This document shows positions 1,323 through 41,800 of a stretch of 64,000 bases of DNA, one piece after another. The stretch spans positions 2,540,001-2,604,000 of the forward strand of contig NC_087077.1 in the NCBI RefSeq assembly GCF_026151205.1. The letters are read 5' to 3'. The notes under the pieces are model-generated. The model was given only the letters and a program-made list of their open reading frames with translations, searched no databases and had not been told where the DNA came from. Source of the stretch: Bolinopsis microptera. Lineage: Eukaryota > Ctenophora > Tentaculata > Lobata > Bolinopsidae. The position numbers and the translations under genes are program-made. Within the stretch, counting starts at the first letter, position 1; every line of letters starts with the position of its first letter.

Positions 1323-4300
1323 GGCTGGAAGCTGCGTGTACAATACGACACAGTTCTAGCTGACATCGACGAGGCGTTGTCCAGACTGGAGCATGTCTGG
1401 AGGAAGGATATCAAGACAGAGCTCACTTCTAAACTTACCCAGAACTTGTACGTCAACATTGGAGATGGACCCTTGATCAAGGTAGGAGTTAAGTTAGTTT
1501 TCTTATTTGGAACATGTTGAAAGTTCAACTGTAATAAGGTGGCCTCTTTTTTAAGATGTAGGGAGGCTTGATTGATTTGATTCACTATCTTTTACTGTTG
1601 TTTTACTTTTAAGGATTTGTTCATCTTGATGACAAACTAACCAGGTCAATCTGGATCACTCGTTGCTGCTGGTACTGAAGGAGGTACAGTTCATATCAGA
1701 TCCTGACAAGATTCCTGTCACTGTGCAAGCTCTTCTTGACCAAGTGGGTACCATAATTTCTAATGTTTTATAATTGAATCCACCGGGGAAAATTCCGAAA
1801 TGATATTCCTGCCGGAATCGACCGGATATCCGGCTGATACCGGATTAGCCCAGATAATGGACGATTTTAATCCGTTATCGTTTTTTAATAAACACCAGAA
1901 ATTAGCTGACGGATATCAAAATTAAAAGAATTGTAAAAAATATGCTGCTATTTTGGTTTTTTATAATGGTTCATTTATTGACTCTTTATTATTGATAATA
2001 TCAAACGGCCAAAAAGAGTATCAATAGGCCAAAATAATATCAAATGGCCAATAAATGTACTGCTAATGGACGGAATTCAAACTAATCAGCCTACCCCGGG
2101 GCTTGTTATGAGATTATCCTGAACTTGCTTAATCTTTTACATTCCGTAACTTGCTTGATCAAAATGTCATCAAAACATCATAGATAATGGAACCACCACA
2201 TATATACATGTAACGCGTTATTAATTCTATCACGAAACGTCAGTTCCATATTAGCAACAGTGCCGTGTATTTTCTAAGCTGTTGAGAAGGATATCTAATC
2301 TCTAATGACAGTGCTGAGTTACCAATCACATTCCTGACCATCCTCATTTGTATTGTCAAGTTCATTCCTTGTTCGATATCAAATTATCTCATACGGGAGG
2401 AAGTATATTAAATCAGGGTATTTTTGCTATTGTGTTTAGATGACTCCTCGAGGTAGCCTCACCACTCTTAAATCAGGGCATTTCTCAATCTACTCAACTA
2501 AATATTAGGGAAGTTGGTCGTTTAGCTCCGGACAGTCTATGCAACGTCTATGCAACGTCCGTGCAACAACAAAAGAACCGTCTATGCAACGTCTATGCAA
2601 CGTCCCTGCACAATGAACACTCTATGCACACTCCCTGCACGGTCAGTCTATGCAACGTCTATGCAACGTCTATGCAACGTCCCTGCACAGTACCATATGA
2701 ACACCGGCTACTAGCCGGCTACTAGCCGGCTAGTAGCCACTTTTGTAATAACAGCTCCTCAACTTCACATTAACAACCGGCTACTAACCGGCACTTGAAA
2801 AGTGGTCACTAGCCGGCTACTAACCGGCTACTAGCCGGCTAGTGACCACAAAGTGGCTACTAACCGGCTACTAAGCGGTCACTAGCCGGCTATTAGCCGA
2901 GCTCTAAAGCAGACCTATTAGTAGCCGGTTCTAAACCGGCTAGTGACCGGTTAGTAGCCGGTTAGTAGCCACTTGGTGGTTACTAGCCGGTTAGTAGCCG
3001 GTTAGTAGCCGGCTAGTGACCGCTTTCTAAGTGCCGGCTAGTAGCCGGTTTGGAACCGGCTACTAGTAGGTCTGCTTTAGAGCTCGGCTAATAGCCGGCT
3101 AGTGACCGCTTAGTAGCCGGTTAGTAGCCACTTTGTGGTCACTAGCCGGCTAGTAGCCGGTTAGTAGCCGGCTAGTGACCACTTTTCAAGTGCCGGTTAG
3201 TAGCCGGTTGGTAATGTGAAGTTGAGGAGCTGTTATTACAAAAGTGGCTACTAGCCGGCTAGTAGCCGGCTAGTAGCCGGCTAGTAGCCGGTGTTCATAT
3301 GGTACTGTGCAGGGACGTTGCATAGACGTTGCATAGACGTTGCATAGACGTTGCATAGACTGACCGTGCAGGGAGTGTGCATAGAGTGTTCATTGTGCAG
3401 GGACGTTGCATAGACGTTGCATAGACGGTTCTTTTGTTGTTGCATGGACGTTGCATAGACGTTGCATAGACTGTCCGGAGCTAAACGACCAATGCAAGTT
3501 GCCAAATATTATTATCGGATCAAACCGGTGGGACATGTCGTATGACATCGGTTTGACGTATGACACAGGTTTGTCCTATGATCTGACTATTATCTCACTA
3601 ATCATCCCCTCCTGACCTCGTGACTCTGCTAGCTACCATCACGTGACTATGAGATAGTAACTGTATCTCCTCATCATGATACTGGATCATAAACCCAAAT
3701 CTACGATAGAGTAGCATCAAATGGTTTGTACGGAGTACCGTGCCAAATTCGAACGAACAGCGAGTTTAATCTCATAGGCTCGAACAGTAAAATAAGCAAG
3801 TGTGATTAGGACAATAATCGGGTTGATTCCGGTTCTAAAATTGATATCCGGTCTGGTTGAAAAAATCTGATACTAATAAAGTACTAGAATTGATATCTTA
3901 TAATGTTATAGAAATTGCCTAATATTTCGACATGTATCTTTTACCTAAATTCAAACTTTGACTATTGTCTGATATGATCAGTTTCGTAAAAGTACATACA
4001 ATAATTCAGGTGGATACGAACACTCTGAAAGTGACAGCAGCCAGACTGGAAACCATCGCCACTCACTACAACAAACTCCGCAGTAGGATCAGACCCCACG
4101 AGGAGCAACTCTTTACTGCTAAGATAGCTCAGATTGAGACTTTGTTGAGACAAGGTATTTGCTAAGATAGCTCAGATTGAGACTTTGTTGAGACAAGGTA
4201 TTTACTGCTAAGATAGCTCAGATTGAGACTTTGTTGAGACAAGGTATTTACTGCTAAGATAGCTCAGATTGAGACTTTGTTGAGACAAGGTATTTACTGC

Positions 4301-5880
4301 TTAGATAGCTCAGATTGAGACTTTGTTGAGACAGGGTATTTGCTAAGATAGCTCAGATTGAGACTTTGTTGAGACAAGGTATTTGCTAAGATAGCTCTGA
4401 TTAAGACTTTGTTGAGACAGGGTATTTGCTAAGATAACTCAGATTGAGACTTTATTGCTCCCTAACCTAATCTACAGTTGAATCGAACTAGTCTTAGTTT
4501 GTTCTTATAGTTGAGTGTTTGTATTTTAACATAGGCTTTTTCAGGAAAAGAATCTCTAACGTGGAAGAGTCTAGAAACAGATGATTTTATCGAGGAAGCA
4601 ACATCCCTGCTGTTGGAGGACTGCTTCAAGAAGTTACAGGCAGTCCAAGCAGCACAGAGTCAGATAGAAGCTAAGGTGGCACACTGGCATGGGTACTTGT
4701 GTCAGAGCCTCTTTACCAGTGACCAGTCCTGCTTTATTGAGGATTGGATCGTAAAACAGAAAGAGGTTTGTGGAATTTAGATTTTACTTGCCTTCATGCC
4801 TCGTTCAGTTTAATGTCAGAGGGTTGGAGTAACGATCTTTAGGAATCTATATTTCTATTTATTCACCCTTCGAACTCATTATCTACCTGCCTAATATTTT
4901 TATCGGAAGCTAAACATAACGATCATTTAATTCCCTGGTACGTTGAATGATAAGCAGTTTTTAACAGATGTTAATGATGGTCAGGTATCAGAAGGATATG
5001 CAGTGTTAGCCAACATGTACGGAAGTAAGATTAGCAGTGTGGTGAAGGAGGTCCACAAGTTGCTGCAGGTGTCCGAGAACAGTCCAGCTTGGCAGAGTTA
5101 CACTGCTTTCCTTGATAATCTTATCAGCACAGGTAATATAATGTGTGACAGCGTAACACTTTAATAATCGGTGACATTTTCAAACTATGTGACACTTGCA
5201 TTGGCAAGGCTATGCTGCATTCTACCACTCTGTAATACCTTAGAGATAATCTACAATGTGTAACATCATCTCTCTACAGTCTGTAACTGTGTGACACTGT
5301 AACACTGTAACACTGTGTACTGTCACACTGTAACACTTAATTTAAAGTAAATGTTACACACCCCTGGGCCCTGAACCCCACCTTGTCCAGGTCTGGTAGC
5401 AGCAATGAGGGACGCTCTGACACAGCTCTACAACCTGATAGCACTGACTGACCCAGAGGATAAACCTAAGATACTGGTCAGAGTGGAGCTAGTGGGGGGT
5501 ATGGTACAGTATCATCCTCCCATTGATAAGGAGTCTGCTGATATCAGTGTCCAGGCAAGTTGGGTCGTACTTGCTATTTTGTTGTTCTGTTCATTTTTTG
5601 TAGCATTTATTGATTATTCGTAATTATATATTATGGCAATTGCATGATTCCATCACAATACTTTTACTGACATAATTCAAAATGTTCAGGAGATGGTGTT
5701 TAACTGGGTAACCCAGATGGTAGATTACTGCGAGCTGATACCACGTCTGGTTCCAGACTGTGAGTCATACGCCAAGGTTATCGAGCAGACCCCAGAGATT
5801 GTGGACCTCATTAATAGTATCAGGGGTGTCATGGACGATAACCACCAATCCTGCCAGCTACTTCAGGATAATTTCATGAG
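1323..5880 (+). CDS. Dynein heavy chain, stem region (DHC_N1), 7 exons
   Basis: Exons: 1323-1481, 1645-1743, 4010-4154, 4545-4765, 4967-5132 (an acceptor at 4985 is also in phase), 5391-5554, 5690-5880. The stem is the part of a heavy chain that dimerises and binds intermediate and light chains. Family motifs are VNLDHSLLLVLKEV, LTWKS after a phase-1 junction, and VELVGGMVQYHPPID followed by an IPRL segment. Phases run 0,0,1,0,1,0,2 without a break. The 5555 donor is GC rather than GT. The intron 1744-4009 holds a foldback element, and intron 4155-4544 is built from copies of its own 5' junction. The stem is the least conserved part of dyneins, so subclass cannot be read here. Confidence 0.88.
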
Positions 5881-8800: not shown

Positions 8801-11800
8801 AATACCTAAGAAATTAAAAATTGGCCTATTTAAATCAAATTTGACAATAAGGATATTCATATATGACAAGAATTGGGCAAAAAGGTGAATTTTTTGCAAT
8901 TTTAGCCAAATGAAGTCGAAAAACCTACAACAAGCGTCCCAATAGTCTTCTTTAGTGAATATAAGACAACGATTAAAATATGAGCACCCATACCTCTTGG
9001 GAACCCTAAAAGCTGAGTAGGCGGGTTTATTAACGACCGGTGAAAATGTGGTTCGGGAAAAATATGGCGAAATTACCCTAAACCCACCACTTTATCCCGG
9101 TCATAATAATCCCGAGTAAGGTATATCGGAATATGAAGATAAACAGAGTTGAACTGTTCAGCTATATTCTATGTAGTTGCAGTCTGGGAGCAGGAGGGAT
9201 CACTTTTTTGCAGCTCAGAGTTTTCCAAATGTAGTACCTTAGGTTCTTGACTCTTAAGATGTATATAATCGGATTGACTGTACTGTTTAATGGAACTGTA
9301 GACACTATTAAGAAGGAGTAAATTTCACGACAATAAGGAATATTCGAGCAAAGCCAAGGTAAAATTACGTATGTTTTACCTTCACTCCAAAAGTAGATAG
9401 AACTATCAATTCTTAGGATACAAAAGGGTACATTGAATAAGATGTATGCAACTGTTAGAATTAGTATAGTGATTGTTGCTTTTCTTTTGTTTCTCTTAGC
9501 TCGTGCTGCATTCTCATCACCAACTCTTGAAAAGCCCGAATTGCAGTAGGTCGAGTCAGTTGCCAGTTTTACGACTGATATCAAGCAACTGATGATTATT
9601 GCAACTAAAGGAAGAGCATAGAATATGGAGTCCAGAAATAAGATTTTGTATAGAAAAGTCTTGGAAAGCATAGAAAATGTCCAGCCGCATATGCCATACT
9701 TCAAAAAATATTCGTAGCTTATTCCAACCCACCAAGGGAGAGACTCCCAAATCATAATTATCACCAAATATACGACAACTGGAATGAGAACGTGTCGTTT
9801 TGACAGTTTTACGAACGACAACGAAAGAGAAATAGTTCGGCAAATACTCATCAGCCCGATTGAAAATATGGATAGTTTTTCCAGAATATACCACATATAC
9901 CCCCAAACGCTGCACAGGAAATCTACTGAAATGAAAAATTCTTTTCCACCTGATAATTGAGTCACCGCCATGGGAAGACAAAGCAAGCAGATCAACATAT
10001 CTACCATATTTATGATCATATACAAAAGATTCACATAGCTGTACTTGTTCTTGTTTTTCGCTAAGAAGTAGGAAAAAGAGAAGATGTTGGCCGGCACACC
10101 GAAACAGAAACAGAAAACAGCAGTGGCACCGGACGGCCAGTAAACGAAGGGAGATTCGGTGGTGTAAGATGAGCTAGTTGTGAAATAAATGTCTGTGTTC
10201 GAAGTTAAGTCATCCGTCATTCTGGGTCAGGGAGGTCTTTTTTTCGATCTTAGCTAAACAATAATTATTTAAAATTAGTTTTAAATTATAAAAATGTGTG
10301 TTATCGTATCTATGCTTTAGCAATTAAGAGGGACCGGTCACACAGAGAATAGAGAGATCCAAATGATGATATTACAAATCTTTGCCTTTTAAAAAGTATG
10401 GTTGCCTTATAAAATACGTTTGTATTTTTTTATCGAGTTCGACTAATTAAGAATTTATGATCAATATGGTCCGTTAATCGGTTTAAACTCCAAAGCTCAG
10501 CAGCAAAGATAAGAAGTGTCATACAGTAATGATTTAACCACAAAATATGCACTATATAATTTTGTCATTTTCTAACAAACTGTTTGCTTAATAAAGATGC
10601 ATTCACGAATTCATGGGCATTGTCAAGTGCCAGCTTTTAGTATGCACTTGTATAACAATTGTCGTAATCACATTGCAATATAGTGATACTGTTTAGAACT
10701 TATGTATCACTTATCGCATTACTTGGTTACTACTTACTAGTTACAGTAACCAACTAACTCATCCAAAGTTTAGGGGAGAAATATTATTGTATTGTGCAAC
10801 TTCAGAAAACTAGAAATATTATTTAATTGTTAGAATTCTAAGGTCGACATTGGAACAGTAAACAAAATATAAATGATTCTCACAGAAATAAACCTCGCTG
10901 TTCAATTTTAACACGGTACTCCGTACATACCAGTTGATGCTACTCTATCGTAGATTTGGATTCATAATCCAGTATCATGATGAGGAGATACAGTTGATAT
11001 CATAGTCACGTGATGGTAGCTAGCACGGGACGGGAGAGGATGATTAGTGAGATAACAGTCAGATCATAGGACAAACCTGTGTCCAACCAGTTTGATATGA
11101 TAATAATTTTTTGTTCAATTGACTGGGAAATATCCTGATTTAAGAGTGGCAGAGAGTGATGTAACTCAGTCGAATATTCTCATTATCCTGACTTAAGAAT
11201 CAAAGAAATTCCAAAACTTTCTCCCGTACGTTAGAAAATTTGATATTGAATAAGAAGTGAACTTGATAATACAAATGAGGATGTCCAAGAGCGTGGTTAA
11301 TAATTCAGGAGTGTGATCAATTACTTCTTCAGGTACAGCTATCTCTGGAACCATAACTCAACCATAACCCCTCCTTCAGGTACAGCTATCTCTGGAACCA
11401 TCACTCAACCATAACCCCTCCTTCAGGTACAGCTATCTCTGGAACCATAACTCAACCATAACCCCTCCTTCAGGTACAGCTATCTCTGGAACCATAACTC
11501 AACCATAACCCCTCCTTCAGGTACAGCTATCTCTGGAACCATAACTCAACCATAACCCCTCCTTCAGGTACAGCTATCTCTGGAACCATAACTCAACCAT
11601 AACCCCTCCTTCAGGTACAGCTATCTCTGGAACCATTACTCAACCATAACCCCTCCTTCAGGTACAGCTATCTCTGGAACCATTACTCAACCATAGCCCC
11701 TCCTTCAGGTACAGCTATCTCTGGAACCATTACTCAACCATAACCCCTCCTTCAGGTACAGCTATCTCTGGAACCATTACTAAACCGTAACCCCTCCTTC

Positions 11801-14800
11801 AGGTACAGCTATCTCTGGAACCATTACTCAACCATAACCCCTCCTTCAGGTACAGCTATCTCTGGAACCATTACTAAACCGTAACCCCTCCTTCAGGTAC
11901 AGCTATCTCTGGAACCATTACTAAACCGTAACCCCTCCTTCAGGTACAGCTATCTCTGGAACCATTACTCAACCATAACCCCTCCTTCAGGTACAGCTAT
12001 CTCTGGAACCATTACTCAACCATAACCCCTCCTTCAGGTACAGCTATCTCTGGAACCATTACTCAACCATAACCCCTCCTTCAGGTACAGCTATCTCTGG
12101 AAGGACGATGCACACCATACCTTCTCACAGTTCATCAGTGGTAAAAGCCTGCCTCTGTCATCTAGCTCCCACACAGTAAACTCGGAGGATATCAACCCCT
12201 CACCCTCCCGCCCAAATTCCATGCTCAGCAGTAGTGTGGTTCTCGGTAACGCTGAAAGGAATTTTCTAGCTCCTTCTGTTTCAACCGGTTTGTTTTCTGT
12301 TAAAAAAGAAAAAAAAAGTTGAATTACCGGTATGCATGTAATTTTATTGAATTTTTACCATTATAAATGGCACACTAAATTAAATATCTGTACACCATCC
12401 TATGTTCTGAGATTCTAAACTCTACGCTCAAGTTTCCTCAGGAAGCGGTTCCATAGGTCGTGTGCCGACTCTGGACGATTTCGACAAGAAGATATCCGCC
12501 TATCAAACTGCTTTCAACACCATCAACTCCAGTCCCGACGAATCAGCCATTGGGTGGCTATTTGTGGACATAAAACCGATAAAACAAGTGCTGCTCACCC
12601 ACGCTTCTCGCTGGGTGTATGTTTTTACAGAGTATCTGATAAACCAATGCACTAAGATGCTGGGAAGTATTGAGGAGTTTTTGTTGGATACGGAGCCGCA
12701 GATCGAAACTCTGATCAAGACACTGAGTGCGTCTCCTACTGATGCAGCTATTGCGCCATCGGCTTATATGAAGCTGGTTGAGCTCTTCAACAAGGTTTTT
12801 ATCTTACTCCTTATCCGTTATAAATGTCAGTCTTAGTATTTAAGCACAACTGTAATCCTAGGTAAATAACTTTCAAATCAATTAACAATCTTTTGAAATT
12901 TAATCCGCCCCATCAGCCAACATATTACACATAACACGTCTTTTGATATCGATGCAAAAATTCTTTAAAAACGCTAACTAAAGCTCATCACTAAAGCTTT
13001 TCACTAAAGCTTATCACTAAAGCTTTTCACTAAAGCTTATCACTAAAGCTTATCAATAAAGCTTATCACTAAAGCTTATCACTTAAGCTTATCACTAAAG
13101 CTTTTCACTAAAGCTTATCACTAAAGCTTATCACTAAAGCTTTTCACTAAAGCTTTTCACTAAAGCTTATCACTTAAGCTTATCACTAAAGCTTTTCACT
13201 AAAGCTTACCACTAAAGCTTTTCACTAAAGCTTATCACTAAAGCTTATCACTAAAGCTTTTCACTAAAGCTTATCACTAAAGCTTTTCACTAAAGCTTAT
13301 CACTAAAGCTTATCACTAAAGCTTATCACTAAAGCTTATCACTTAAGCTTATCACTAAAGCTTATCACTAAAGCTTATCACTAAAGCTTATCACTAAAGC
13401 TTATCACTTAAGCTTATCACTTAAGCTTATCACTAAAGCTTATCACTAAAGCTTATTATTTCAGGTTACCAGCAAACAACAGGAGTTCGACAGCAGGTTT
13501 GGGGTGGTTCGCAAGACTGTGGTTCTGTTAAACAAGTACAACTTCAGAATGGAAAAAGAGGAGTTCTTCTTGGCTGCACCCTCTAGGTAATACACTTTAA
13601 TTCGCTATAAGTTTAGTTGGACATATTTTGGATTTATATCTTTGTATTTTATAATCTTTTCTAAGTTTTCCCACAGACTTTGAAACTTCATTCCGAAATT
13701 TCTGTCACATCTTGACTGTTTAGATACTCATCACAGTTGTTTACTTTCTTTCTAAGGTAAACGATGAATGCTAATTTCGCTCATGTGTGTGTGTGCGTAT
13801 TGTAGTTATAACTTGATAACGACAGGTAGTGTGTACACGGTCCAACTCTGCTAATTACACGGCCCCATGCCTATTGAACAATGGAGAACCTTTTCAAGGT
13901 ACACCAGGTATCGTAAACAAGCTTCCCTCACATACTGAACATATGTCTAACAGTTCATTTATTCAGGTGGAGTAACCTGCGAGCTAAAGTAGTGCTGGCT
14001 AAACAGAGAATAGCCCCCAAAATGCAACTAAGATCCGAGCAAATATCACACGTAAGTTCGGTTATTGGTATGGTAATATTAGTAACTTTAGATTAACAGT
14101 AACTGCAACTCTGCAACAAAATATGCATTTGTGGGAACATTAACTGAATTAAGTCGTCCACAAAATTTGATCTCCTAGGATTTGAGGGAATTCGCAAGCC
14201 TATGCCAGAAATCTCGCGAAGAATTTGCCGGTTGTGAAGCATTCCTCCGAACTTGCAACTACCAAGATGCTCACGAATTGATCAAGCGGTTCAAAGTCAG
14301 AGTAACAGACTTGGAGGACCGGAGCAGAAACCTCGTGGAGCTCCAGGAACTTCTGGAGGCCCATATCGTGGATTTCACCTGTATTTCCGAGTTTAGAAGT
14401 GATATTGAGACTTTGGAAAAGGTAAGGGTGCGATTACATGTGGATTAGCTGATAACGTTAATTAGGTTACAGAAATTTTGCCAATGATTTTATTTTAAAT
14501 TTTTTTACATAAATCCTAAAAATCCAACAGAAACCAGCTAAGCACCTTAATATTTTCTCCAGGTATGGAACACGTCTAAAGGAATGAAAGCACACCACTC
14601 GCTATGGCGAAATGGGCAGTGGAAATCACTAAACTTGTCGTCTATATCACATGAGACCGAGTGCCAAATTCTGGAGTTGAAATCGTTACCCGAAAACGCT
14701 CATATATGGGATGTGTACTGTGGGCTTATGGAAAACATAAAACAGATCAAGGTCTTTACTCTTGAGTTTTTTAATTGAAATAACATCTTTCTATTCGGCA

Positions 14801-17800: not shown

Positions 17801-20800
17801 ATCAGGTAAACGATCCCAAATAATCGCACCCACGAATTAATGCAATGTGTCGAGCTATTCTCCTCAAATGCCGCTTAGAAATGTAAAAATGGAAATGTAA
17901 TAGGCTTCTTTCAAATATGTAGGCTTCACCAACTGAAAAGTATTGTAATCAATGATTTAGCTGGACACTACATTTTTAAATGGCTATATCAATATGCTAT
18001 CAATAATTTTTACCACAACCCAAAAACTGGGTCTAGTAGACCAAAATTAGTGTGTCCCTTTTTCCATCGAAAAAAATTTGAAATCTCAACACTCGGACTT
18101 TATAAGAGACTCGGCGAAAATTAATAGAGTTTCTCAAACATATGAAAGCCTTGAACGCCTTATCATTTTCCCGTTTCGCATGTTCAAACAATAAACATAA
18201 ACCGCACACTTGCACTTTGCGCGCGAAATTGTTGGACAAGTTGAGTTATTAAGGCTGCGTTTCATTTCTAACTTCAAATCCTGAACCTTGAACTTACTGT
18301 GATAAATTCTTACTCGGATAACTCCACAGATTACAAAGAAGAGGTATTGGTGATTTGCCAGCGTGCAGAGACAGACGTTCAGATGGAGTTCTCACTTCAG
18401 AACTGTGAAGAGGTGTGGCTAAGTAAGGTGTTTGAGCTGAAGACAATCACGCGTAAGAGAATAAATGTGAGTAATAAAAATTGAAAACCTGATTTTTAAA
18501 CGATTATTGACATCTTTAAATCTGTTTTTATAAAGAATCATAAATAAACGATATCCATATATGATATCGTTTAAATAAACGATATAATCGACAGTTGAAT
18601 CCTCCTACTATCCTAGACAATTTCCTAACAATTCTATAGATGTATGCCCAGGGTGATTCCGAGAGTAATGGTCGTGTGGAACTTGTAAAAACCACCCGGG
18701 ACTCTCAAGTTTTGGGTTCGTTCTCTGAAGGTAGATCCCGAGCGTTCTCCATCGCTAGTAAAGACAGTAAACTTACTGATCAGAACAGCTATAAGGTGAG
18801 ATCTTGAACCCTTTCTCTCACCTGCCTCTTCCCGGACTCCCCTCCTGATCCTAACCCCCCCCCCCCCCCCCTCATCCCACACTGCTTTAACCTTCCTATG
18901 AAATATTCTTCAGATATTGAAGATATCGGACGATCTGTTAGTTAACCCTGAATAATATCTTTGTCAGGAATCCGAGCCGGTGTCCATTCTGGCAGAAACT
19001 GACTCTATATTCGAGTGTCTGTGGCATCACGAGATGATACTGGACAGTATCATGAGCCCAGGCTCAGCGTTCAGTGACGATATCTGCAAGTGGCAGAAGA
19101 AGTTGCAGACAGTCGAGCTGGCTCTAAAGACGTGGGTGTCGGTACAGACCAAGTGGCTGGAAATGGAGGAAATGTTTTCCATGATAAATATTATTTTGTC
19201 TCTGAATACCCACGCTCGTGTGTACGCTCACGTGGATCTAGAGTTCACTCACATGATGAAGAGTGTCGGGGAGAATCCTAACATCGTACAGCAGTGCTGC
19301 AAACCTGGTTAGTTATATGTCGGATAGTATTGTCAAGGGGCGGCATGGATCACATCATAAATCCGGGTTGGGTCCGGGACCACGATATTGTCAAATACTG
19401 TACCAGTTCAAATCCCAGTGTCACCAAGTCTAGGGAGTGAGCTTAAGTGAGCTAAAGATATCATTGGATCTATCAACATTGCGCATCTGTGTAACGTGTT
19501 AAATATAATATAACATAGAGGTATACAAAATAATTTTCTACAGGAATTCTAGCTGCACTGAAGAGTATCTTAGAGAAATTAGAAACCTGTGAGCGAGCTC
19601 TCGTGGACTTCACGCATAAACAGTGCTCCAGATTTCCCCGGTTCTACTTCTTGTCCGCTAAAGACGTCTTCCACATCATGTGTCACGGTTAGTTCAACAC
19701 TTCCACAATCCACATCATGTGTCACGGTTAGTTCAACACTTCCACATCATGTGTCACGGTTAGTTCAACACTTCCACATCATGTGTCACGGTTAGTTCAA
19801 CACTTCCACATCATGTGTCACGGTTAGTTCAACACTTGCATGCCAGTAATATTAACTCACCAGTAATAATTCCTGGCTAGGGATAGTTACTGGCCAGGAA
19901 TAGTTAGGTGCTCAGCTTTTTATACATACTTGCCAATTCATGAGATCTTCATGGGCAATGTAATCATACTATTTATATTATTCGCTAATAAAGCTGCACA
20001 AACTTCACCATACCAATTGTGTTCATTAACATTCGACCTGAAAACTATAACGAGACTCATAACAAGACACTGTTTATAAATCTCACTCTAGTCTATAATC
20101 TAGTCTATAATCTAGTCTATAATCTAGTCTATAATCTAGTCTATACTCTAGTCCATACTCTAGTCTATAATCTAGTCTATACTTTAGTCTACACTCTAGT
20201 CTATACTCTAGTCTATACTCTAGTCTACACTGCTGAACAGTGAACACCTTCAGGACACGACCTAGTAGCGATGTCGTCCTACATCAGCAGGCTGCTTCCT
20301 GCCGTCTCCTCTCTCCAGATAGACCTGGACAGTGTGGCACAGCCCGTTACTGCACTCTCCACTGATATCGGGGAGACGCTCATCTTACAGGAGGTCTGTT
20401 ATCAAGCTGGCTTTTTCTAGATTTATATTTGTGATTTGGAAATTACATCTGAAATGATGGAAGTTTCAACCTAAATCTGGATTCTAAAGTCGACTAAGTT
20501 TGTGTTTTTATGGTATATTGTGCTGATATCATTATGGTTTTTATTCTCTTCACTGGTAAGCGGTTTGTTAATTAAATTTTGTATGTGGATTATCTCAGCT
20601 GCAATAATTTAAAAAATCAAATTTAGGGTGTTGATTATTTCCAATAATTCATTCGTTCTGAATAATCACGCTGTTCAGGCCATGGTCGTGGAAACATAAT
20701 GTGATTACGGTAATTAACGATGATAATTTGCTGGGAAATTCATGAAAAACATGTGATTATCACCTCATGGTGGTGAGGCAAAGCTTCATTATTTTATATT

Positions 20801-23800
20801 CAAATGGTGCAAGTTTGATAAGAGCATACGTGAGGGTTGAGAGTTCCTGGCTAAAATCTAAACTGGAAATTCATACAAATTTTTAAAAGGATTGTCTTCT
20901 ATCCGGGCCAAGTGATGAAGTGAATATGGGTTTATTTGAAAATATATTATTTTCATCCTGATTTTTTTGTGAAATTTGATTCTGAGATAACAATTGACCA
21001 ACAAGCTAGGGCCTGTGACCGAACTTATGAGTTCGGACAAAAATGACAGAGTTGTGAGCCAAAAACCATATGCCCATATTTGGGCATACGCACCAAATTT
21101 GATTGATTTTGGCCCATAAATTGCTCAAATATCAATATTTTTGAATGAAACCAACTTTATATAAAAGGTAAGCCTAAACTTCACATGTTCTCTATGATTA
21201 TCATCTCAATATCTACATTCTACCTAACTGCACTGTGAATTCTGTGTTCAAATAATCGCAAAAAAATGAACAAAATCGCCCATATCTCAGTTCGCGATAT
21301 TCGCGAAGCTGATTTTGATCAAAACCATAGAAATAAATAGGGTTGGGGGGGGCCAACCATATTAAAGTATATTAAAGTATATCCCCGGGTCAAAATCGGA
21401 AAAAATCCTACATTTTAATATACTTTAATATACCTACAATTAGAAGATTTATATTCTTCGTTAAGATTGACATGATGAACTATATTTTTCACTCAGATTC
21501 GCAAGCTAAGCCTGTTTTAGGACTAGTACATGAATTTCCATCCAGATTGGTCAAAAATTGGCTGAGCTATGAGCTTTAAAAAGTATGCCCATATTTGGGC
21601 ATACGCTTTTGACCAAATTCGCTTTTGACCAAATTCGATAAAATTTCAATATTTTTTAATGAGACTAACTCTATGTGAAAGATATAACTCAGTGTTTGTT
21701 GAATATAGTGGATACTAAGTAAAAAGACCTCCATGAACAAAATTGGGAAAATTGCACATAATATCTCGGTTCGGAATACTAGCCAAAATGACTTCATTAA
21801 AATTGAAATAACTCCATCAGTTTTCAATATTTTTTCAAGAACTTTTTGGAATAGATTAAGAATTGCATTTCAAGCTTATTTTGGGCAACAATTTTTGAAG
21901 TAGGCCTCCAAGGAGATAGGGATATTAAAGTATATTGTAGGTATATTAAAGTATATTAAAGTATATCCCCGGGTCAAAATCGGGAAAAATCCTACATTTT
22001 AATATACTTTAATATGGTTGGCCCCCCCCCCCCCCCCAGGGTTTCAATATTTTTTCATGAAATTTTCAGAATCAATGTAGAATTGCATACATGATTTCTC
22101 ATCTAAACAGTTCGAACTTCGATATCGTATCTTAGCAGTATTCCAACAACTAATCCGTCTTTATTTTCAGCCGGTGCCAACTGACTTTGAAATATTCGAG
22201 TGGCTATCCTGTCTGCTGGACATAATGAAGCTCTCGGTGACCGCTGACTTGAACGAAACTCTAAGAACTGCCGTGTTTGAGTTTGAGAATTTGAATGAGG
22301 AAAACTGGATCTTCCAGTGTTCTAGCGGTTAGTTTACCCATTTAAGTAGCTCAAAATTACCAAACAAAAATATGCATCATAATTATGTTATTATATGAAT
22401 TCAGCAGACATGTTACATTTTAATAATATAACTCCTAGTCCTCAGTTATTCACCGGTTATCTGATAACCAAATCATTACCTTCTCCCTCTCTTTGGTAAC
22501 CAAATCATTCCCTTCTCCCTCTCTTTGGTAACCAAATCATTCCCTTCTCCCTCTCTTTGGTAACCAAATCATTCCCTTCTCCCTCTCTTTGGTAACCAAA
22601 TCATTCCCTTCTCCCTCTCTTTGGTAACCAAATCATTCCCTTCTCCCTCTCTTTGGTAACCAAATCATTCCCTTCTCCCTCTCTTTGGTAACCAAATCAT
22701 TCCCTTCTCCCTCTCTTTGGTCCTAGTCCTCTTAGTCTCCAGCGTTCAATTAATGTTTACTGTTTACAGAAAGTGTGTTACTGGCAGTACAAATGCTGTT
22801 GGGGAAGAAGTTACGGGATTGTTGTCAAGCCATTGTTGATGGATCCAACAAAAGTGCTCTGTCAGAATTTGCTGAGGAATTAACTCATATGATAGGTAAA
22901 ATGAATATTTGGTAATTAACACTGCTGAACTCGCTTTTCTTATCCCTCTGGACTAATCTATCTGCCAACATTTCAAAACCCGATTTGATAGGCTTCCTTC
23001 GTTGGTAACAGCACTATAATACACTTCATGACCGGATGGTTTTCTAAACCACCCCTAACTGCTCCCAGGTCAACTCCAGCGGATCCTGCAGGCAGCCGGA
23101 GAAGAACTGAGACCTAAAGTAGTAGCCGAGGAGGATGTACCCCCGTCAGATGACGAGATTCCTCGGTCTGTCTCTCAGAATGTTCCAGAACGAAGCAGGA
23201 AAGGAACTCCTCTTCCTGCCTCTCCTGTTGTACAGCAGGTGGAGGAGGATGCTAAGAGCGAGGCTAGAAGCGAGGGTTAGTGATATTTTGTCGTCCGGTT
23301 CATCAGATTTGTAAATTTTCTATCATATTAAATATTTTAAACGCGGTGGGCTCAAAAAGCAGACACTAAATTAGCTGAGTGGTCAGCACGGAAAAGTCGT
23401 AGCAAAACACATTTTTGACTGAAAAAGATGATTCTATTAAGCAATCTTATAGAAAGGAAACTCCTTCCCACTGCATATTGGGACTTTACAATTTCGTCTG
23501 CATATTGGAATATCGCAGTAGTCCCACCTGGTAAACACACTACTTGTGTAACACCAGGGTCTCCCGCCTTTGTCAGGGGTCCTGTGGATTAGAACATGTT
23601 TCAAAAGTAAAATACGTTTCAGCCGAATGAAATATATATTGGGAATATTTATTTAGAAAGATACAAATAAAAGTAACGAATCTTTTCAACTAAACGATTA
23701 AAACGCAATGTTTCCTTATTTACTGAAACAGAACTGACCTGCAATAATTGTGATCCCCAATCCCAGCCCAACTGTAATCATCAGAATCATATCCGTGGAC

Positions 23801-26800
23801 GTGAGGGAAGTTGGAGCTCCAGTTCTGACAGGTGCTCCCTCCCACAGTTTCACTGACCTTGCCCCGGTAATCCTGCCCTAATCCGAAGTAACATTCCTGC
23901 TCCCACACGCACGCGGGTATATCCTCGCAGGTCTCAGTCTTTGTTTCGGAGACATAACAGAAGGGCTTGTTTCGCGCGCCTGTTGGGTCGGGGTTCCGAC
24001 AGAGGTTGTTGGGCTTGGCAAACTGTGCTAAAGAGGTTATGTTCCAGTTAATGCAGTCTCCTGACTGGGCTTTTGCAAAGTTTCCGCGGAAGGTTTTTCC
24101 ATTCTCCATGTAACAAAAGACGTCGTTTGTAAGGGCAGAAAAAGAACCAATAGCGGAAATATCAGACGTATTCCTTGCTTCAAAGCCTTCCTTAAGAATA
24201 CTAGAAGATCCCATTAACTCAACGTCTTCGTAGACCTTGAACTCCCCTCGAATGACCCTTAGCGAATTTACCGCCATATGTACCTTTAAACTGTTATCAT
24301 GGAACTTATAACAGTCCCCTCCAAACTCCACTTTCGAGCAGATCTCCATGACAGGCCCAACACAATCATCTTGAGATTTGGATCCTTCAGACAGAGTGTA
24401 AGCAGTTTTGGGACATGACACGCACTGCACTGCTCCTTCAACAGAGCTGTACTGGTCTCTAGGACACGCTCTGCAGGCCACAGGGTTCACGATGTTGCTG
24501 AACGTGCCCTGAGGACAAGGTGTGCAGACTTCAGACTGGTAGGCTAGATAGTGACCTAGTGGACAGTCGTCAGCTGAGGCTACCGAGACGAGTAGCAGAA
24601 CAGCTGTAATCAGCATCTCAACTGGGATAAATATGGAGCAGGGTGAAGCGGGGAGGATTCGGTGCTAGTTGCTACTAAGTATTTTGGTTTATAAATAATT
24701 GTACTGGCTAACATCACCTGTTTCCATAATTATTATAATATCGTCACGTGTATGTGTTAAGCTCGTTGTAACTGAGCTGCAGCGGTTTAGTGGCCGCACT
24801 AACTCACGTTACCGCTCTCGTTTACACCCAACCCCATAAATGTCGAAATATGGAACTTTGAATGACCTATTTAACCAATATCTAGATACGGTTTAATAAT
24901 TTGAAATAGAACTAAAGTTAAACCTCGAACGTACATTGCATCTGATGCTCTAAAATATTAATATGAGCTCTGAGAATGCGATACCACTGAGATATTCAAT
25001 ATCATACATAATATAGATAATAAATTCATCAATAATCCTTTTTTATCAATCATTTATTTGTTTCCTTATTATTAGCTTGAAGTTTTTACCAGTTTTAATC
25101 TGGTATGTTCGCAGGATGCCAGCTGGTACCACACCAACTGGAGAAAGTACGAAACCTCATCCTGAGTCTGTTGGGTCTACGAAACCTTACTAACAAGCTG
25201 ATTGAAGAACCAGCAAATCCCGACTCATTCACCCTCAAATCTCAACTGTGCTATGCCATGGTGGAGAATCAGCTTACTGTTTCTGTTCTGAACAAATCTT
25301 ACAAGTCAGTAAATTTTCTCTAAAGTTTTATTCAGTGGCCAGCACTTGTTCAGTTTATGTCACGTGGATTTGAAAATTTGTAGGAGCCATATTCGCTGTT
25401 ACCTCACTGCAGTCCGTTTTAAAGGATGTCAAATATTTGACCGGGAAACTTGTTCAGGTACGGGTACGAGTATCAGGGCACATGTCCTAAGATAGTCACT
25501 ACTCCTGATACTGACCGAGCCAGACTAGCACTCTTTGCTGCCTGCCATGCTTACAACGGAACCGTCCTCCTCAGTCATCGGGTATGTTGCTATTTATTCA
25601 AAGATTAAAGTACTGTGTTGCTAACGCAAGCTGTGGTTTTAAAATACTTCACAGTTCTGTGTAATATAATCTTCTCACATCAAGTTTTTGTGTCTATTTC
25701 ATTAAAATCTGGAATATTTCAAACAAAAAAGTGTAAATATGGACAATACCCATTAAAGACATCACACCAGGGGAGTGGTAAGACGGAGCTGACACGTGAC
25801 ATCAGCAGATGTCTGGGAGAGACCCTCTACATGTTCAGTGTTACTGCCAGCACCAGTCTGGAGTCTGTCCGGGACATCTGTCTTGGCATGGCCAGCTCCG
25901 GTGAGAGATTATTTACCTTTTGCAGATAATGCACCATCACAGTGTGATAAATATTCGATTGAAATATAATATTTTTGTAGGAGTTAGAACTTTTTTCATT
26001 ACAATATGAATAATTTAAGATAAACTTAAAATAATATCGTAAGCTTTGAACATAAGTGCGAAAATGTAACATTTGTAACATGTTTCTAATTTCACAATTT
26101 CACCCCCTGCCCACTGCCAGGTTGTCACGTGTGTTTAGAAGGAATGCCGTCTCTGGTACCGGGGGTGTTGTCCCTCCTAGTGGTCGCTGTCCGGGACATC
26201 ATGTCAGCTATCAGTCAAAAACACGACCATGTCAACGTTCTGGTTAGTATTATAACTGATTTTTTTTGTATACGCATTAACGTCCGGGACTCAGACCTGA
26301 GTTTAGTCATTTTCCGATACGAGATTGGGGACGGGTCCTATAAACAAACAAACAACGTCCGGGACGATAGATTTTGAAAATTAACTTCTACAATGCAACT
26401 CTGTTGAGAGTCTCATCTCGTTCAATACAGAGTATTTTGAAATTTCTGTACATTATAGCTTATTTGTTTACCATTGATATTGTTTGATTGCGCCGTAAAA
26501 ATAAATAACTGTTTTATTAAATAAGTGTTTTATCAAATACTTATTTCTAAAAATTCCCAATTAATTTGAAATCTGGTTCTGCAGGACCACGATGTACCTC
26601 TCACGCTAACCGGAAGATGTTTCGGTACCTCCCTCCCCACCCCTACTATCAACCTATCTGACATAACTCAAGGAGTGTTCCGTCTTGTCACTCTTACTCA
26701 ACCTGAGGAGCGCACTATCTACGAGGTAAGAATGTGCCATGTGGTGTGTGCTTTTCTAGAAGTATTTGTTACTGTGTTTCTAAGCATTTTTAGCATATTT

Positions 26801-35800: not shown

Positions 35801-38800
35801 ATGTTGAACTGTATCAATGTCATGTGGTTACCACACTGGGATAGCGTACAACTGCTCCATGTCTCCAAATATCATCTTGAGGGTTCGTCCTGATTTTATG
35901 AAATTGTTTCTTATAACAGTTTGAAATTTCTTATGTTTCTGATTTAATTCAGCTCAAAAATTTAGCGACCAATCGTTCTGAAAATTAAAAACTTCCTGCT
36001 CTTTAGATTAAATTCTCCCTGAATTATTTAATGTGATACTTCTACAGGTATAGAAGGTCAAACGGAAAAGGAAATTAATAATCTAGGCCATCTTCTGACA
36101 AACATTCACAAAGCAACATCTCCTTCCGGAAACTTCAACAACACCGATTTTGAGAACTTCGTCAAAAAGTTTGTCATATGGCCTCTATTTGTACTATTCG
36201 TAGTTTGTTATATCGTTTTTTCCTCTGCGGAATTTGAATTATCTGCCCTGTTTGTGGCATCTGTAATTTCATTCTCACGAAATACTTATAATGTAACTGT
36301 GCAGGTTCGTGGACATATTTCTTAAACAGGGGGTAATAGTGAAAGCTAAGCGGAAACACTTGGAACAGAGCTTGTCTTGTATTAGAAAAGTGTCATCTCA
36401 TGCAGGTGGGAAATTTGTTTTAATCTGTACAAATCAACTGTAAATTCCTATTGTGCTGAAAAATATAATACCGAAACAACTAGTTGATATGGATTCATTT
36501 TTATTAAAAATATGACACTTTCCGTACAGTAAGGTTCGATCGTAAAATAAAACATTGTAAGTAAAGCGAGAGCGTATACGCAAATCATAGTGGTTATATA
36601 GGGGAGGGGATCATTTTTTTGTCCATTTTTGTCCATGTGGCACCCTATATTTTTAAAGTGGACAAAAATAGGTTGGACAAAAATGGACAAACAATTTCAA
36701 AATATGTACATGGAAATACTCCGAGACGAAAGGGGAACTCACTTGCTTTTTGGGTTAAAATCGATTTCTCGACTGTTATCACCTTTCTAGATGCTTAAAA
36801 TATTTCGCCTTTATTTCACTCTTTACTTTTAAATGTAATAATGGTGTTTTGGGCCACTCCCTTTTCTAGAGTTTCGCGATCACTTGAATTTTTGTATTTT
36901 AGCCAAGGAAGATCGTAGAGACTATTTTGAAACACCAAAATGTGCCTAATAGCCATATTTATATACCACTTATGAAGCAACATATAATATATGTATCTAT
37001 TATCTTTAAATGCTTTTTTTTCGGAAATATGGACGAAAAACGGTTTTTGGCTTGACGCAGTTCATAATTTCCGTGCTTTTTTTGTGTTTTCCGCATAATA
37101 TAGAGAGGCATATTCATTATTCATGAATGTAAAATCTTGTCCTGACCAAACAGCGATTTGAGGAAGAGCTTCCAGGTTTATCAAAAATCCCTTTGTTATT
37201 TCCTTTTCTTAACATAATATAACCTATAGCTATCTACTGAGCTTCTGTTATCGGGTCGGCCCACAATAAGTTATTTGATATATTTACTTTAACTGTTAAC
37301 AGTTCGGTAAAAGTTCAGTAAATGGTTTAAAAAGTTCGCGGGGTTCGGCACCTTTCGAAGGTTTGTTGAGAATGTGGCAGTATCGAGATAGCCCGACCAC
37401 GGTCCGCGGACCACTGTCCGCGGACCACTGTCTGCGGACCACTGTCTACCAGATCATATTACTGTATAATAACAGTATCCCCTGAATCAAGCAACAGGTG
37501 TTTGTGAATAGTTGATTGGTTACCAGATCATATGAATGGTATGTATGGTATTTTGGATGCAATTAGTTACGACTAGAAATGATTGATGCAGTCTGATAAT
37601 AGTTATTCTTTATATATTGCATGATGTGAACTGATCTCGTAAGGTTGCTTAATCGTTTAATAAGCCTTGACACCACCGCTGATTGGAATTCGCGTGCGAT
37701 GATGTGAACCCTGCTTGACTCAGGGGATGATGTGAACCCTGCTTGATTCAGGGGATACTGTTATTATACAGTAATATGATCTGGTAGACAGTGGTCCGCA
37801 GACAGTGGTCCGCGGACAGTGGTCCGCGGACCGTGGTCGGGCTATCTCGATACTGCCGAGAATGTTTTCCCAACTAGGGGTCTTCCGATCTCCCCGAGTT
37901 AATGAAAGATGCATCGTATATTTGTATATCCCTCTTCTGAAATCTACTGAACTTCTGTCATTGAGAGAACCACCAGAATCTGCAGAGCACTGAGCACTAA
38001 CGCAGTGATAATAACAGAAGGTAGCGGTGCAAAGGCCACCATAGCTGTTCCAACTGCACCTCCAACCAAGTTCATAGCAAGCGAAACACTGGAGCCAAGA
38101 GCAAACATCTCCGCTCCGAAGTAATCTATGTCGTAGAGAATGTAACCTTTGGCCATACCAGTGACCCCATACAAGAACTTGACGATGAAGTTGGTTGTTA
38201 CAACTACTGCAAGATGATCCTGTGCAAGCATGCCTCCAAAACTCGCCACGTTCAGTATGGCAACTATCACTTGAAATTTGCGAAAATTGAATTTCTTCCT
38301 CGTGAAGTGCATGAATAACCGTCCGAGGATAGCTGCAAATGTGACGAGGGCCAGTAGCAGGAGTTCCTTTCCTTGAGTCACAGTCACTGAGCAGTCACTG
38401 TTTGGTTCGGCTTCCTTGGTCTTGAAGGCCTGGATTAAAGTGGGTACGAGAAGAATAGTGAGCCAGCCCTGGAAGAAGACCACAAAGCCGAACAACCCTA
38501 GTTTTGTAGTTCTGGCAACAAAATTTGGAACAGTCGCAGACACCGTTTCCTTCTCCTCCTTTTGGTTTTGCTCATTCACAGTTTGTCCCGTTTTCTGTCC
38601 TGATGTCAACGCGGAACTAAAGTGGAGCATGAAAATGGGTGGTATGAAGAAAGGTAATGATGTCAGAAGAATGAAAATCCTCCATCCTACCACATCTAAC
38701 AGCAGGTATCCCAGAATCGCCGACCACATTCCTCCGACACTGTACGTTATGAACAATGCCATCACCATCTCGTCAAGAACTTTCTTACTAGAGATCAGCT

Positions 38801-41800
38801 CAGCAATCAAGACGCTATGGACGGAAAAATTGAGTCCAAGAGAAAACCCGATAAGGGCTCTAGAAATGAGAAGTGTGGTGTAGTTAGCTACTATAGCACA
38901 GGCAACTGTGCTGATAGCGCTCAAATAGAGGGAAAACAGAGTCAAAACTCTACACCCAAACCTGCAAAAGATTAAATTTGTGTTGGAAAACGAAGCACTG
39001 AAGTAAGCTTTAACTTATCTGGGGACTCCAAGCTATTATGTTCATAAACTTAATAGAGATTCGGCGGAATGACAGGCTGAGCGCCGCCCAGTAAGCTTTA
39101 ACTCTCCGAAAATAAATATTAATGTTTTTCCGGTTTGTATGTCAGCTAGATCGATAAATTAATTTCTTAAGATAGCAAACCTGTGAGCCAATATTCCTGA
39201 GAAGGCGACAGCAACTGCTAAAGTGGAGTACTGTATGCAGTCCAGTATTGCTTCCTTCCATGGAGAAAGTTCAATTTCGCACGAAACTTGTTGTGTTATC
39301 ACTCCTGGATTAAAAATGGTGATTTCTAGTTTCTGATGATATGTTGTTGGGTTCAAGTTTTAAAAGTTTTTTAATGAAAGAAATTTGACTTTTTTCTAGA
39401 AAGCACCAAATGATCTGGGAATTCTTTAATTGGACGAACCAGGCAAATAGATTTCCATTCCATCTCCAAGGTTAATGACGACACCAAATATTAACAAAAG
39501 CTTATCCATTCTTGTCCACAGTTTTACTGGTTTGATTAAAGAACCAGTTTCATGTCTAATTTCAGGTTCGAGATCTGGATTAACCATCTTGTTCGAAATA
39601 AATAGTAAAATATTTGCTTCAGAATTCTAATAGAAAATCAGGATACAAAGATTAAAATTAACATCGATCTCGAGCAACTTTTTGAATGTTTTATCCCACT
39701 CAAATGATACAAAAACTTCATCACGTCAATTTGATCGGACCTGAGTGCAAGAGGTGCTAAAGTTTAACTTCTCAACTCCGTTAGGCTTTATAACTCTAGC
39801 AATTAAAAAGGCTAATTTCAACTGTTTCAGAAGTGCTAGAGGCCAGGCTGGCACGAGAAGCCACAGTTCTGATAGAGAAGGACGCTGGAGTAAACAACAT
39901 TCTTGTACAGCTGGGTCGAGATACTGCTATCATAGAGGCACACAAACTAATGCTGAAACAGCAGCAGGATAAAGTTGCCCAAATCCAACAGGTAACCTAG
40001 CCAGGTTTTCAGTTTATCTAGTCTAGGAATGAAAAGACAATATATTGTAGAATTTCAACGTTTTTACCCTTCGATCATAAGGGCTCAAAAAGCTTAAATA
40101 GTTAAAATAATTTTTTAAAAGCTTAAATAGTTATTTAATACAGGGTTTGCTATTTTTAATAGAAACTTCTGACCATAATCTTCCTCTAACGCTGAAGATC
40201 AAGATTATTATTCTTACAGGCTCTTCCTCAACTGGAGATACAGCGGAAGAGATTCGAATCTGACTCGAAGAACATAAAGCTGACAATAAAAGATACTCTG
40301 GGTCAGCTGACCTCTATCAGCTTGACAGAGCTGAGATCCATCAATAAACCGGACTCGCATATTGAGGATATTATTGTCGCCGTTATCATGTTATGTGAGT
40401 AGTGACCTATTCGTTGATTATGTTAATTATGTTAATTATGTTAATTATGTTAATTATGTTAATTATGTTAATTATGTTAATTATGTTAATTATGTTATTT
40501 ATGTTAATTATGTTAATTATGTTAATTATGTTAGTTATAACTTATATCTGCTAGCTGGTATGACTGTTGACAAATGTACAAATAATAAATGGAGAAATGT
40601 GCAATACTTTCTAAGGTTAATAACTAAGATCTCCTAAAAGATATGTCCAAATATTATTCTATAACAGATTCAAATTATAAATACAACGACTAATTTATAA
40701 CTATATGGTTACATTATTTAAGTTATTAATCAATCATGACTGTAATCGTGGACAGCATCTATACAACATCGAAATATGAAAATCTATGCAATGGCAAGAT
40801 AAATAATAACAAGTTATGTATTATCATGTGTATTATGTGTGCAGAATACACCTCATGATATGACTGATCACACTAAGCCTCATAGGTGAATGTGAATGAA
40901 TTGTTTGATTTTCTATTATTTTGATTGCCCTGTATTCTGTAACTTTGACTGAGATCGAGATTCGAGACCACTGTATATAAAGGATGTATCGACTTCCATA
41001 CTGAGCTTGAATTTAATTTTTAAGGCATCAATGACCTCTCTGATGAATATTTCCAGTCCTCCAAATATAAGATCATCAACATGGATCACTATGATCCCAC
41101 ACGGCTTATCATTTCTCTGTAAAAAGAAAAAGGATTCATCGTACACTGACACTGCTACACAAAGCTCTACTAGGCCTAGGGTATCTCTCATTTCGACATA
41201 CCACATTCTTGGGCCATCAACCAAGCCATAGATGCATTTTAGGAGTTTCCACAATTTACCAGATACCTCAACTCTCAGAGTAGTGAATACGTTGGCACGT
41301 GCCTGCATCTGTCAAGTTTATTCGATCTTGTGACTCACACGTGACTTTTTATTGACATTATATTATTACACTCGTTCAACTAATGTAAACTTAGCGTATG
41401 AGCAGCAAATTGCGGAACACGATATTCAGACCTTCAGAAGATCAGTGCGATTAGTTTTTTAATCGCACCAACTATGTTTTTGGTGTTTCTCAAAACAGTG
41501 CGATTATTTTATAATCGTACTCCCTGTCGTGTCACGTCTGGTCACAAGTTTCATTTAGCCCGGAGGAGAAGAAACCGGGGGAAAATCCGGTGCGGTAATG
41601 AAAAATATAAGTGGCCGTCAAATAGGCCAAAAGTGGAGATATTTAAGTTATTAATCGATCATGGCTGTATTCGTGGCATCTTTAATGTGTTGCAATCGCA
41701 AGATAAATGTTAATAAGATATCCAGGATAGACATTATATTCTGACTCCGTTTTACTCTCCCCAGTAAAATCGCCTATGGCTGACCTAACTTGGAACAAAG

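Follow-up and report, generated by a model that had tools for sequence, protein, structure and literature searches.

Seventeen tandem splice acceptors precede an exon of a dynein heavy chain homologue in a ctenophore genome

The stretch of DNA analyzed here, referred to as the window, comprises 64,000 nt of contig NC_087077.1 of the ctenophore Bolinopsis microptera (positions 2,540,001 to 2,604,000). An initial annotation, made from the sequence of the window, had pointed to a series of splice acceptors directly upstream of a short exon of a putative dynein gene. Our analysis confirmed that the splice-acceptor array at 11333-12085 is real. The array and the exons to which it belongs are arranged as follows (in all motifs a slash marks the splice junction):

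5690-5880, plus strand: upstream exon; the intron behind it opens with GTACGA at 5881, and the junction with 12085 is in frame
11333-12084, plus strand: sixteen 47-bp units, with extra acceptors opening at 11333, 11380 and so on to 12038
12085-12140, plus strand: authentic dynein exon of 56 nt, starting at the 17th acceptor (YSYLWKDDAHHTFSQFIS), with homology across the junction
12442-12794, plus strand: downstream exon, joined in frame to 12140 across an intron of 301 nt

By word count, CAGGTACAGC occurs 17 times in the window, each time inside the array, and marks 17 plus-strand acceptors of the form CAG/GTACAGC, the first at 11333 and the 17th at 12085. All 16 distances between neighbouring acceptors are exactly 47 bp, and Tandem Repeats Finder (TRF) called the region 11327-12102 with a period of 47, 16.5 copies and 98% matches. 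CAG is present at all 17 sites, which were located by a word that itself contains CAG; the even spacing indicates, however, that no acceptor is missing within the array. As the initial annotation had stated, each unit combines a pyrimidine tract, CAG and the first bases of the exon: 18 nt from the start of the exon are followed by 29 nt closing in the tract and CAG. Across all 16 full units the exon-derived 18-mer GTACAGCTATCTCTGGAA and the tract CCCCTCCTTCAG are invariant, and the units vary only at a few sites on the intron-derived side. The acceptors had also been described as identical, which holds for the full context of the 16 acceptors from 11380 to 12085 but not for the first one, at 11333, whose left context deviates (AATTACTTCTTCAG). 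The first, second and last acceptors score 10.2 in the acceptor matrix, so that a single array acceptor lies between the 75th and the 95th percentile of that matrix. A whole-assembly search with the array, in which very common words were skipped, reported one match.

Reading frames were computed from each of the 17 acceptors in the phase of the real exon. Only the 17th was open and in frame. The 16th was open within the exon but shifted the frame, and the remaining 15 ran into a stop, at codon 8 in three cases and at codon 26 in twelve, in agreement with the initial annotation. The peptide joined from exons 5690-5880, 12085-12140 and 12442-12794 had matches in 13 distinct PDB entries at E≤0.001, each named as a dynein heavy chain, the best being a flagellar outer-arm dynein beta chain (E = 1.5e-21). 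The two best alignments pass the junction NFMR/YSYLWKDD without a gap, while several weaker matches reach only the part behind it. This ungapped homology indicates that the exon 12085-12140 is real and that 12085, as first proposed, is its start; judged by these matches, the host gene of the array is a dynein heavy chain gene. The gene finder used here predicted all three exons, but agreement in exon phase is forced by its model and is thus no independent support, whereas the homology of the joined peptide is independent. The introns flanking the exon measure 6204 nt upstream and 301 nt downstream. Within the former, which ends in the array, lies a minus-strand open frame of 354 aa (window 9162-10226) that has no Pfam match.

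Three further repeat arrays are found in the same gene:

4117-4457, plus strand: mirror-image array of seven donors, AAG or AGG followed by GTATTT, at 43/46-bp spacing
19668-19837, plus strand: second array of five donors, CACG/GTTAGT, at 32/39-bp spacing
12977-13456, plus strand: 13-bp unit in 37 copies, ending 8 nt upstream of the acceptor of predicted exon 13465-13586, thus abutting the junction without including it

In the first donor array one donor of seven gives an open frame, namely the first (intron from 4155), which leads to exon 4545-4765. The peptide across this junction resembles outer-arm dynein beta, ungapped at that point although weakly (1.6e-5), and the exon at 4010-4154 rests on this match. 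Likewise, only the first of the five donors of the second array (intron from 19688) remains open, and the exon there is matched by Pfam DHC_N2 with 36.6 bits.

The initial annotation had covered this one array. We surveyed nine further dynein-locus stretches, chosen by Pfam matches and not by repeats, with other Pfam-matched loci left out, as well as seven myosin loci. Exons were predicted with a home-made gene finder that used codon usage from two long dynein frames and from receptor frames, splice matrices and Pfam anchors. Including the window gene with its 62 introns, this gave 306 exons, 289 introns and 606 junctions. Among these junctions, 20 array-like rows were obtained, and seven were accepted: the three of the window gene, B, D 22998, E2 2754 and M7. 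Junction-spanning arrays thus occur in 4 of 227 predicted introns outside the window gene and in 7 of 289 (about 2%) in all. The array at 11333-12085 is therefore one of a recurring class, which has already been named in lancelets (see below). The four arrays outside the window gene are:

DYNC1H1-like gene (C12): 19 acceptors CAG/TTGC before an exon, at 58/50-bp spacing, 1 of 19 open
DNAH2-like gene: 162 acceptor words CAG/GACG before an exon, 1 of 160 open
Myosin gene: 22 identical donors CAG/GTAGGA after an exon, at 40-bp spacing, 1 of 22 open
A further dynein gene (locus D): five donors after an exon, four of them at 30-bp spacing and one a variant

The spliced DYNC1H1-like peptide aligns with cytoplasmic dynein 1 heavy chain 1 over 108 of 108 residues, ungapped over the junction. 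In the DNAH2-like array 158 spacings are 29 bp, stretches of 3356 and 1114 bp interrupt the series, and the spliced peptide aligns ungapped over 196 of 196 positions, with an X at the split codon. The exon at locus D has a weak DHC_N2 match (29.7 bits, under the cut-off), its spliced frame is a prediction, and its extra 30-nt units contain no stop. In every array whose frames were tested, only the exon-proximal copy was open, that is, the last acceptor or the first donor. The gene finder had chosen the wrong copy at three of the seven accepted junctions, which were corrected by homology and sequence. We did not accept the other 13 rows, which were ambiguous, weak or located inside an exon (A 7110, A 8146, C 10324, D 4166, two at D 16443, D 22758, E2 5843, E2 8498, two in F, M3 and G 5632); G 5632 had three copies, one of them with a broken AG.

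Similar structures were seen at other loci. In a TAF2-like gene (L030:826-1158; C8:7268001-7269900), nine CAG/GTAAGT words, 37 bp apart and accompanied by a pyrimidine tract, stand directly before an exon matched by Pfam TPR_TAF2_C (2.8e-14). The pattern CAGGTAAGT-N16-46-CAGGTAAGT had 497 matches in the genome compared to 2 for the reversed pattern; many of the 497 come from few arrays, with at least 14 distinct loci, counted by eye, among the matches listed, and in the examined loci the two 9-mers have base counts of 3 and 2, too few for normalising. Nine loci with this pattern were inspected. In three of them (L031, L033 and L034) the first donor closes a plausible coding exon, and of these L031 alone gave a Pfam hint, WD40-like and under the cut-off; five showed no plausible coding exon by coding score, and the ninth is the TAF2-like L030. 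At L034:731-2522 (C10:1534501-1537700), 39 exact CAG/GTAAGT words, mostly 32 or 64 bp apart, follow the plausible coding exon, which itself has no Pfam match. Two more repeats were noted beside predicted dynein exons. At L001:7807-8016 the 12-bp unit TTCTTTGTACAG, an acceptor-like word, stands 17.5 times in tandem, 129 nt upstream of such an exon, and at L017:1408-5824 a 19-bp unit in about 230 copies starts at a predicted donor, in the same C12 stretch as the DYNC1H1-like exons.

Minisatellites abound in the introns of this genome: of 1890 intronic 20-mers taken at random, 184 had a nearby copy with up to 3 mismatches. When 20-mers at 408 exon ends were examined in the same way, a few near sequence ends being skipped, 14 rows were obtained for 204 exons. 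The coding-score filter had removed exon 12085 and the DYNC1H1-like exon, so that the true junction count is slightly higher. An enrichment of repeats at junctions was rejected at this scale, as junctions are poorer in copies than introns and are no special targets. In a placement test of 58 arrays against 2000 random placements, 11 arrays lay within 12 nt of acceptors or overlapped them (4.6 expected, p = 0.0045) and 9 did so at donors (4.5 expected, p = 0.024), a modest enrichment of about twice the random expectation near intron ends. Arrays with fewer than 2.8 copies, with period 9 or with their centre inside a predicted exon were dropped from this test, the 43-bp and 30-bp donor arrays among them, and the test covered the survey without the myosin loci. 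No loss of an internal AG or GT was found in the profiled units. Since few losses are expected and the units were found by a word containing the site, a test for selection has no power here, and in such a test no evidence of selection for or against internal sites was seen. Undirected tandem duplication that is tolerated where the exon-proximal copy is still used would be the simplest account.

Some observations concern other parts of the window and the genome. A tandem duplication of 476 bp lies at window 42708-43685 (two copies, 96% matches). Long open frames on the minus strand encode a major facilitator domain (37944-39014), kringle/ephrin-receptor-like domains (23720-24664) and a dynamin domain (50166-52139); the first two, antisense between predicted dynein exons, are apparently nested genes. 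Alongside the many-exon dyneins, the genome holds other dynein genes (L006-L007 and L008-L009) whose stop-to-stop frames reach 3703 and 3357 aa. An iGluR ligand-binding domain, joined from two halves, scored 224 bits against ML032222a structures and 192 bits against 4zdm, the next group reaching 113; we take these two to be from the ctenophores Mnemiopsis and Pleurobrachia. A second receptor of the genome showed no such ctenophore preference among the best 60 of 360 matches.

We favour, with a probability of about 0.72, the reading that the array is a neutral minisatellite spanning a splice junction, of the kind termed 'mirage', and that the last acceptor is chosen by exon definition. A segment made up of CTTCAG, the 18 nt with which the exon opens and a 23-nt intervening sequence supplying the pyrimidine tract would have been repeated in tandem to yield 17 acceptors. 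The anatomy is directly visible; tandem duplication and unequal exchange may have produced it. Only the last copy carries the body of the exon, and it is this copy that the conserved protein needs. Acceptor 17 is also nearest to the donor at 12141, with which it would pair across the 56-nt exon. The upstream acceptors may be silent, or used at a low level with degradation of the products, and the array would probably be without function. For mammalian systems, passages of PMC9225289 describe an intron threshold of about 250 nt, above which splice sites pair across the exon and below which they pair across the intron. Both flanking introns exceed this length, which makes exon definition an economical account. 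At the other arrays the array-holding intron, according to predicted exons, is at least 390 nt long; growth of the array itself adds length.

Several points weigh against this reading. Exon definition at the window array would be borrowed from other animals, and the median length of predicted introns in the dynein loci, 248 nt, is borderline for intron definition, under which the opposite copy (the first acceptor, the last donor) would be preferred. A Pfam search with the 136-aa peptide of exons 12085-12794 found no family. The lower frequency of nearby copies at junctions than at intronic positions, described above, has to be counted here as well. Finally, we infer that the array originated as a junction copy plus filler, and the 23-nt filler had no match at ≤5 mismatches elsewhere in a 74-kb region.

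According to a wider proposal, arrays of identical splice sites would be widespread in the ctenophore lineage and tolerated in essential genes by a strict exon-proximal rule of the spliceosome, supplemented in GT-bearing arrays (the window array and the TAF2-like gene) by self-correcting splicing steps that lead on from internal copies to the final one. We regard this as doubtful. Splicing could also proceed recursively, or as a ratchet, throughout the array: use of an upstream acceptor regenerates the donor AG/GTACAG, from which splicing moves on to the last acceptor, so that errors correct themselves. The initial annotation had likened every unit to a recursive-splicing point, and GT does follow CAG in each of them, making re-splicing possible; the length of the upstream intron, 6.2 kb, also speaks for it. 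The donor is weak, however. GTACAG scored 5.9 in a matrix trained on predicted junctions of the genome, close to the lower quartile of predicted donors (25th percentile 5.7, median 7.6) and without a G at +5; joined to the real upstream exon it reached 5.4, compared to 8.5 for the authentic donor. The ratchet looks most credible in the TAF2-like gene, where the nine CAG/GTAAGT words with their pyrimidine tract represent textbook ratchet sequence. The units of the DYNC1H1-like and DNAH2-like arrays, in contrast, have no GT after AG and cannot ratchet, so that ratcheting finds no support as a general answer. For the window array we consider it unlikely.

Regulated unproductive splicing, in which internal acceptors are used deliberately and mRNA is lowered through nonsense-mediated decay, would fit the frame results, with a stop behind 15 of the 17 acceptors and a frameshift behind one, and with the exon-proximal copy alone open elsewhere (1/19, 1/160, 1/7, 1/5 and 1/22). 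Stops arise by chance in repeats of arbitrary sequence, though, the donor units of locus D contain none, and the unrelated sequences of arrays in several genes argue against a common regulatory role; we think it quite improbable. We give as little credence to the idea that additional copies of branch point and pyrimidine tract help a very short exon to be recognized despite the long intron preceding it. Each unit does add one CCCCTCCTTCAG tract, and the excess of arrays ending near acceptors points in this direction, but donor arrays require another reason, and a lone array acceptor is already strong at 10.2. An assembly collapse or expansion, or a gene no longer under constraint, is scarcely credible: the gene is divergent, but its units carry ordered variants, joined peptides from two parts of it still match outer-arm dyneins, and similar arrays occur in the strongly conserved DYNC1H1-like and DNAH2-like genes.

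Mirages are described, in the passages available from PMC3087553 and PMC3902484, as minisatellite-like repeats over exon-intron boundaries of lancelet Adh3, globin, troponin C and PGBD5, where RT-PCR suggests undisturbed regular splicing and the unit number varies between haplotypes (6 and 3 in globin BflGb6). As far as these descriptions go, the repeats of both animals consist of exon part, splice site and intron part, affect acceptor and donor ends alike and keep AG or GT in many units; the window array spans the exon-intron boundary and retains its AG/GT splice signals. The present arrays differ in belonging to a ctenophore and in their size, with 17 copies in the window array and as many as 162 at the DNAH2-like locus, compared to 6 and 3 in BflGb6. 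Regular splicing and length instability are reported for the lancelet cases; the window array is known from the sequence of one assembly. We class it as a probable new representative of the mirages, in another phylum and with more copies than the globin gene has.

Recursive splicing points, or zero-length exons, share with the window array a pyrimidine tract and CAG followed by GT, so that the used acceptor would regenerate a donor. Known points of this type are single and dispersed in long introns, whereas the window array lines up 17 of them immediately upstream of the exon, and their donor is weak. A short duplication also multiplies AG/GT where introns are gained through tandemly duplicated AGGT, of which potato RdRp is said to be a case; in the window, however, the intron pre-exists, the array lies at its edge, and no new intron is shown. 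This mode of intron gain was modelled by Rogers, as cited in PMC3087553. Minigenes with competing splice sites in cis, described in passages of PMC9225289 (the work of Reed and Maniatis and constructs with two identical donors), show that proximity decides among competing sites, as is proposed for the window array, while the present arrays are natural, reach 162 copies and lie in endogenous genes. A literature search by titles and abstracts, and in passages of PMC12221973, found no report of such arrays in ctenophores, which does not prove their absence.

Junction arrays mislead gene prediction, as the wrong copies selected here illustrate. To judge from the passages of PMC9225289, the choice among identical neighbouring splice sites has so far been studied with artificial duplications, such as the two-donor minigenes. 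In the genome analyzed here, conserved genes naturally carry runs of 5 to 162 acceptors or donors that are nearly identical, and one organism and ordinary RNA sequencing could test the proximity rules of exon and intron definition, first-AG scanning and ratcheting. Mirages would thereby extend beyond lancelets.

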